Part shown: positions 45,101-48,100 of the stretch, in pieces
Layout of the letters: each line of letters starts with the position of its first letter
How positions within the stretch are numbered: position 1 is the stretch's first letter
Assembly (NCBI RefSeq): GCF_035083965.1
Contig: NC_089726.1
Span: 15,629,501 to 15,693,500, forward strand
DNA: 64,000 nucleotides
Reading direction: 5' to 3'
Source: Branchiostoma lanceolatum
Taxonomy: Eukaryota > Chordata > Leptocardii > Amphioxiformes > Branchiostomatidae
Position numbers and translations under genes: made by a program
The notes under the pieces: generated by a model
The model's database searches: none
Seen by the model: the letters and a program-made list of their open reading frames with translations, nothing else
Told to the model about the DNA's origin: nothing

Positions 45101-48100
45101 CCTAAGAACTCATGCAAATTTTTTTTTCTTCTCCTAAGTGGCTTTCAGGAACAGGAATTTATCGAAGACCTTTTACTAAATGGAATTATGCAGCCTTGCT
45201 GAAAACCTTAGGATGAGAATATAATTCCTTAACCCTTTTAAATCGCACTATTTTTCTCTCAGAAAAATATAAAAAAACTTATGAAAGATTCTTACAGAGA
45301 AAAATATTCCATTATATAACAAATAGGACTGTGACATTATCTGACAAGATCATTACAACTTGAAATAAGATTGTTAAACTCAAAGACACCAGAGAATTGA
45401 TAACCTTAGATTTTTTCTAAACAGGAAAACTGGCAAATATGTACTTCTTAAAGGTCTTCTACATGTGAATATGTCTGTATAAACTCTTCACAAAGTCCTT
45501 GGCTTAAATGTAACAAGAAAGCATTGAGGGGGAAATATGGCCATGGCTTGAGGACTTAGAGTTAGAGGAATGGTATGGTTGGACAAATCAGAACATGGAT
45601 GGAGCTTCAACAGCAAAACCAACTTGACTACTGTCCAGAAGCACCTTGAGGTGGAGGGAGAGATGTTCCCGGTCCTCAAGGCATCAAACAGGAGGAGAAA
45701 ACAAACCATGAGAGTCAAACCCAGAGATAGAAGAAGAATTCCTCAGACATTCTATATGGTAATAACTTTATTACTGAGAAGATAAAATGATCAGATAGAA
45801 GTCTTTATCATGGGTTTCATCAAATGGGAAAATCGGTTTAAAAAACTTCTTAGTTTCTGAAAATGAAAGTAGGGCAATAAAACCTATAAGAGAGAATTTG
45901 TAAAAATTGTAACTTAACTTTGATGAAAGAAATTATTGAATAGCAGCTTTAGCATTCTGAAGATACAGTGTTAACATTACAAAAAACAGTTAACCTTTAT
46001 CTCATGGTTACTTTTATGGAGAGAAATATAATAGATTTTACTGGATTAAACAAAATTCCTCCCCCGAGGCATCGCCAAAAAACGCTAGCAAAACTCTGCA
46101 TTTCTTCATATTCTCTTTTCTGTCTTCTTTTCTCTCACTCGGAAAATGGAGGAATGAAAAGGACTGCGCAGAGATGACACACGGCTAGGAAATCTACACG
46201 ACTGACCGTAGGTGCGGGGGACACGGGCGCGCTCCAGTTCTCCTGGTTCAGACCGACTTTGGTCAGAATCTTCGACTGAGTCTGATTGGCCCAGACAAGC
46301 AGCGTGAACGAAAAGTTAATCCGGTTTGAAAACTTAGCCTTCTAAGCTACAAGAGGGTTAGCACTTTGAAGTTAGTACATTTTGTAAAAGAACAGAATAG
46401 CAAAAGGATACAAAACTTAGGGAAGATTAGTAGGAAAGGAGAAAAGCTACTTTAGTTACAGTTTTTAGGAACTTAATATATATTGTACATTTGTGGGCTT
46501 CTTAACATGCATATAACCATGCTGGCCTGGTAGTCTGCTTTCCGTTCATCATGGAAATATAATCATCATTTTATGAAATAATACAGCATGATTTATCTAT
46601 ATTCTGTCTTCCTGTTACTCCATGATATGATGATGTTGAAATACTACAAATTCTCTGTCCTTTAACAAAATGTTTGTGCCCCTCCTTGAAAACGATTATC
46701 AAAAAACATAACTGCCATGTTGGGGGGTGGAGGGGAGCACAGAACGTAAAAGATGAAAATTTCATGAGGCAAGAATACAGCAAGACAACAAGACACCCTA
46801 TGCCATAACACACAGACAAGCAGCACAATGTACAAGACCAGTCATGCACACATATATGTACACAGTTTCTTTGTCAGTCATATTAACATGTCTGATGCAT
46901 TCCCGTGGTCCTACCTTTGCAGCAGGTTTGTCGCCTGACGCTGTGACGGAGTGGAAACCGTGGTCGCCTGGACCAACAGATCGGTTCCGCTGCTGCCTTC
47001 GGAGTTCCTGTTGACGATATTACAACATCAATCCCATCCAACAGTACACCACTACTGTAAATCTTGAAACTTTTGCTGTGGCTTTATTTTCCACGGTGAA
47101 TTCTCCACCGCAAAATCATGACATCGCAAAAATTACCTCTGTACTAGAGAATTGTTTCAACCGCAAGTTTAAAACACAACGAAAACCTTGCTTTCTCTTT
47201 TTGAAAATACTGAAATAATACCACAGCAAAAATAAATGAACTTACAGTAATTTCTTCCTTCGACCATTTCACTACACTGATGGTATAGACCAGGTAAAAA
47301 ATCACATGCTTCACAGCATTACATATGCAAGAAATATTTATCACACAAAAATAAGTTCTTGTAAGATCCATTTCTAATGCAACTGCAGAAAACATTAGTG
47401 TGACTGAACACCAACAGGAGACCACAGAACACCAAGCAGAGACCATACCTCTTTGGAGTTAACCAGCGCTGAGACCATGCTGGCGTCTGCAAAGTCGGGA
47501 TGTTTGGTGTTGACGTATGCAAGCTCTATTTGTACTATGTTCTCAACCTGGGGTGTGGAGAGGGCAAGGAGACAAAAGAGAAACTCGTCAACGCGTTAAA
47601 CATGCGTCGTACCTCCTGGCTGCTGACGAGCGCCGAGATGAGGCTGGCGTCTGCGAAGTCGGGGTGTTTGGTGTTGATGTAGGACAGCTCGATACCTACT
47701 AGGTTCTCAACCTGTGAACAGAACGGTATACCATGTGCCTATACATGTATGCAGGAAAGTTGTGGCAGTCCAACACATGTAGACATAGTGAAGTTACTGT
47801 TACAGAGCATAGAACAGTCAGTCCACTCTAAACAAATGGGAGGAATGGTTTCTGTTATTTTCTCATTCAGTATGCCCAAATTCAATACACACAAAACAGT
47901 TAGCTTTGTGGCTAGCAAGATCTGAATGTGTCAAACAGTTTGGTTTTTTATATGTGAACGAATTAGAAGTTAAGATTGATGTGTGATTATTACAGGTGTA
48001 ACAAAATCCACATGGCTCTGTGAGAAGGTAAAGTTAGAGACAAATTGATGTGTAAGACGTCACCCAACTGCTAATGCAACCAAAAAACCACTTACTCAAA

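Follow-up and report, generated by a model that had tools for sequence, protein, structure and literature searches.

The DNM1L/Drp1 gene of this lancelet carries, in the part that encodes the stalk, two adjacent versions of one exon, and we consider it probable that these are two working alternative copies of a single ancestral DNM1L exon, of which each mature mRNA receives one. The tandem duplication itself is established, because the similarity between the copies is confined to the exon and 3 nt on each side of it, and the flanking introns are unrelated. That the copies are mutually exclusive is likely, judging from the sequence around their splice sites. We call them 14a and 14b, a numbering that follows the gene's own exon count and may not equal that of the human gene. 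In other words, what we describe is most likely a known kind of splice switch in a new place, exon 14a/14b in the stalk of DNM1L.

All positions refer to the window, i.e. the whole 64-kb (64,000-nt) stretch of DNA analysed, in which tblastn places exons of the DNM1L/Drp1 gene on the minus strand, between 59444 and about 39185. Exons 1–15 join across GT-AG introns into a single open frame of 543 residues; when spliced, they match Pfam Dynamin_N (E 3.4e-57) and Dynamin_M (E 3.4e-103), and stretches matching the GED follow at 41012–39185 (tblastn), whereas no variable-region exons were located between 46915 and 41012. Is this gene closer to Drp1 or to a classical dynamin? With joined exons 13-14a-15 as the query against the PDB, four human Drp1 chain sequences stand at the top (E ~3e-23 to 7e-23) and the best classical dynamin reaches E 1.8e-9, which places the gene nearer Drp1. 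An exon-by-exon tblastn search with human DNM1L likewise finds the gene DNM1L-like. The Pfam, PDB and exon-wise matches thus bear out the preliminary description, which had named the gene as DNM1L. The exons that surround the duplication, and the intron within it, are as follows.

48965–49111, minus strand: exon 12, present once, with DNM1L 401–446 matched by the first 46 codons
48393–48482, minus strand: exon 13, 90 nt encoding 30 residues, the constitutive upstream partner, with the donor ATG/GTCAGT
47613–47711, minus strand: exon 14a, 99 nt, phase 0, encoding 33 residues, a stalk segment matching human DNM1L 483–515
47548–47612, minus strand: intron between 14a and 14b, 65 nt, pyrimidine-rich in its 3' part (77.5% in the last 40 nt)
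47449–47547, minus strand: exon 14b, 99 nt, phase 0, encoding 33 residues, the other version of the 14a stalk segment
46915–47007, minus strand: exon 15, 93 nt encoding 31 residues, the downstream partner, in which the variable region begins

The preliminary description had reported two adjacent 99-nt, phase-0 exons with intact splice sites, about 65 nt apart; coordinates, lengths, frame and GT-AG sites are all as it gave them, and the interval from 47612 to 47548 is indeed 65 nt. Its figure of 23 identical residues out of 33 was a miscount, the correct number being 25, and at the nucleotide level 77 of the 99 positions agree. Within the 64-kb window, the two exons find one another by tblastn at E ~3e-15, and no third copy was detected by the same search, the next matches having E 3.4 with 14a as the query and 1.2 with 14b. 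Over the region 46900–48500, the repeat unit measures 105 nt, that is, the exon with 3 nt per side; when the 65-nt flanks of the two copies are compared, shuffles are as similar in 81% of cases upstream and 24% downstream (n = 500). A repeat so confined to the exon, with flanks that retain no residual similarity, implies a duplication that is not recent or one that was cut at the exon edges.

The window holds other repeats as well. Protein-level near repeats lying within 6 kb of one another are, apart from the exon pair, mostly tandem arrays. Two arrays of similar units with a period of ~127 nt are found at 19654–20576 and 55634–56492, apparently in opposite orientations, the latter upstream of exon 2 in the intron 1 region of DNM1L, and at 13620–14380 a 47-nt unit is repeated in tandem 16 times (94% matches), with several frames left open. 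A near-repeat pair at 25573–25999 was examined and rejected; it looked like repeated AT-rich DNA and had no Pfam match. Additionally, the plus strand carries a pair of related, cysteine-rich ORFs (30756–31304 and 34412–34927); they are 42% identical, both match Pfam stn_TNFRSF12A, and they probably represent adjacent TNF-receptor-like paralogues. On the minus strand, an open frame of 918 residues at 2351–5104, in which endonuclease and reverse transcriptase domains are recognised, marks a LINE-like element. Rfam and tRNA scans of the window returned 0 matches each.

What would keep 14a and 14b out of the same mRNA? Both copies have GT-AG sites, with donor scores that are ordinary for the gene (6.63 for 14a and 7.63 for 14b; median 7.42 and range 4.48–11.33 over 16 donors), and the pyrimidine share at −20 to −5 of their acceptors is 69% and 81%. 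The intron between them measures 65 nt and is far shorter than the 14 others for which a length was obtained, 13 of them upstream of 14a and one, of 441 nt, after 14b; these span 278–4010 nt. Only two yUnAy matches lie at least 12 nt from the end of the 65-nt intron.

47596, minus strand: adenine of TTAAC as a candidate branch site, at a distance of 17 nt from the donor of 14a, a motif match only
47588, minus strand: adenine of TTGAC as a candidate branch site, at a distance of 25 nt from the donor of 14a, a motif match only

This motif scan is insensitive, because it finds no yUnAy motif 12–70 nt before the 14a acceptor, where a branch point is required if 14a is used. By arithmetic, a branch point as near as 18 nt to the 14b acceptor would still be 47 nt from the 14a donor. 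A steric threshold of about 50 nt between donor and branch point is described in passages of PMC7969005 and PMC5740500, and the latter ascribes to short donor–branch geometry 57 of the 629 exclusive clusters in human. Joining 14a to 14b would be hard because any branch point serving 14b would be so near the 14a donor that the two could not be engaged at once, and exon 13 would then be expected to join either 14a and then 15, or 14b and then 15. The earlier wording, "probably mutually exclusive", can be kept as far as the short intron and the branch-site geometry go. When exons 13 and 15 are joined through both copies, either copy or neither, the open frame is kept in every combination, and exclusivity is not enforced by reading frame or NMD. 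A switch in RNA structure within the 263-nt segment was considered and rejected, the fold being ordinary; no unusual fold was found in this segment, for which z is −0.50 and a fold as good or better is reached by 65 of 200 shuffles.

Two further features of these introns deserve mention. The motif GCATG, which we take to be the Rbfox core, occurs once in the 65-nt intron, at 47601–47605 (+8 to +12 relative to the donor of 14a). It is seen a second time at +140 in the intron that follows 14b, a count that is within chance. Directly downstream of the 14b donor, at 47403–47444, lies an imperfect 21-nt tandem repeat, which may act in splicing or be no more than drift.

How else might such a pair of exons be used? 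Use of the copies might be alternative but leaky, with both employed and with double inclusion (+33 residues) or double skipping at appreciable levels. All four combinations being in frame, nothing downstream would remove the mixed products, and introns as short as 65 nt are spliced in some animals; we nevertheless find leaky use unlikely, given candidate branch sites that fall under the ~50-nt threshold and a second dimer-interface helix that would probably disrupt the fold of the stalk. Far less credible is the constant inclusion of both exons to give a longer stalk. Although the reading frame permits it, and although there is a precedent for mandatory inclusion in the EBF/COE genes of vertebrates, where a helix exon is duplicated (PMC2394523), the two exons here are separated by a mere 65 nt of intron, and a repeated stalk helix in so highly conserved a GTPase is structurally improbable.

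The remaining alternatives concern the standing of the copies themselves. Between 14a and 14b, dN is 0.175 and dS 0.690 (Nei–Gojobori), and the ratio of 0.25 (codon-bootstrap 0.07–0.71) suggests selection on the protein. In crude neutral simulations in which every change was treated as free (n = 5000, 22 changes), eight or fewer residue changes were seen in 0.14% of runs, and a stop arose in 36% and none in 64%. Taken together, the simulation and the dN/dS ratio disfavour two free copies and weigh less heavily against one free and one constrained copy. Could one copy, then, be a relic, or rarely used, and intact through recency or partial constraint? From a comparison of just two sequences, constraint cannot be placed on each of them, and the 64% of neutral runs that stay open do so by luck. 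We judge a relic to be rather improbable all the same: over the first 22 human residues, which are conserved, 14a matches at 19 and 14b at 18, so that neither copy looks decayed; the splice sites of both are ordinary for the gene; and the lack of leftover intron similarity implies that the duplication is not very recent. An assembly artefact, such as the merging of two haplotypes, is a known risk where genomes are very polymorphic, but merged haplotypes would have duplicated intron sequence too, and because the likeness here stops 3 nt beyond the exon on both sides, with unrelated introns around it, we regard an artefact as next to impossible.

If 14a and 14b are, as we think probable, alternatives of which one enters each mRNA, what does the exchange alter in the protein? 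By PDB match and tblastn, the exon aligns to human Drp1 483–515. According to passages of PMC10864337, Tyr493 bookends the Drp1 stalk dimer interface, and at 100 nM most of the Y493A mutant protein is monomeric; it fails to assemble with GMP-PCP, and it retains basal GTPase activity but loses the lipid-stimulated activity. Common to 14a and 14b are Glu490, Tyr493 and a ten-residue sequence. Within human 483–504 the copies differ (14a/14b) at 486 (L/I), 488 (G/Q), 492 (S/A) and 494 (I/V), and further differences are found at 506, 507, 512 and 514, toward the variable region, where the human alignment is loose. On an ideal helix, 486 falls on the face of Tyr493, and a flank is shared by 488 and 492. 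Helix propensities are such that Gly-to-Gln and Ser-to-Ala exchanges favour a stiffer helix; on this reasoning, 14a (Gly488, Ser492) should be the more flexible version and 14b (Gln488, Ala492) the stiffer. In the alignment, dynamin 3 has Ser at the position equivalent to 492, so the residues of 14a and 14b are within the range of the family.

The splice choice would thus supply two forms of Drp1 that differ in the Tyr493 stalk helix and at the start of the variable region, and these two forms might in turn differ in how tightly they pair or assemble. A difference in pairing strength between the isoforms is a reasoned guess on our part, and, the substitutions being mostly mild, the functional difference may be small. 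The preliminary description had suggested that the pair could serve to tune stalk assembly; this is a fair reading of the site, strengthened by the published Y493A result, although the difference in pairing on which it depends is that same guess. More tentative still, and to our minds somewhat doubtful, is the idea that splicing sets the monomer–dimer balance of Drp1, a two-state switch of the Tyr493 helix giving a loosely and a tightly pairing protein and so tuning mitochondrial fission, per tissue or stage, directly at the dimer interface. To our knowledge, this layer of dimer balance falls in vertebrate DNM1L to the variable region and to modification.

Should both exons be in use, a core protein of mitochondrial fission would possess a natural pair of stalk-helix variants around its dimer interface, and a comparison of 14a with 14b would reveal which neighbours of Tyr493 set the strength of pairing. 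The pair would also be a second, independent stalk splice switch in the dynamin superfamily, at a site other than exon 10a/10b, and it would illustrate in compact form how a short intron can lead to exclusive splicing. Among the matches listed from the open-licence literature, there is no duplicated or mutually exclusive exon pair in DNM1L/Drp1, and in PMC9741552 the terms DNM1, DNM2, dynamin, amphioxus, lancelet and Branchiostoma have 0 occurrences. Public annotated gene models may already carry both isoforms. Among viral contigs, 19 pattern matches were obtained, none of which was confirmed as a relative.

How does this pair compare with systems that are already known? Exon 10 of the classical dynamins presumably covers residues ~399–444, equivalent to DNM1L ~401–446, and its counterpart here is the single-copy exon at 49111–48965, two exons upstream of 14a/14b. 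The likeness to dynamin 10a/10b drawn in the preliminary description is therefore apt as to the kind of event but not as to the exon, which encodes DNM1L 483–515 rather than ~401–446; because the site differs from that of dynamin exon 10, we regard 14a/14b as an independent duplication. What the two pairs have in common is considerable, for exons 10a and 10b, as described for DNM2 in part of PMC9652393, are likewise tandem, mutually exclusive, in frame and located in the middle/stalk region. In human DNM1L, the same gene, splicing of exon 3 and, in the variable region, of exons 16/17 alters how Drp1 behaves near the boundary of stalk and variable region (PMC11467262); the variants described there are optional cassette exons, with no duplicated pair and no replacement of stalk-helix residues. 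For the mechanism, the closest parallel may be found in exons 4a/4b of OGDH, which distant branch points render mutually exclusive (PMC7969005). Although the OGDH branch points were mapped experimentally, at 25–41 nt from the donor, and those proposed here, at 17 and 25 nt, are matches to a motif only, that pair too has a short intervening intron and a long pyrimidine tract before its second exon.
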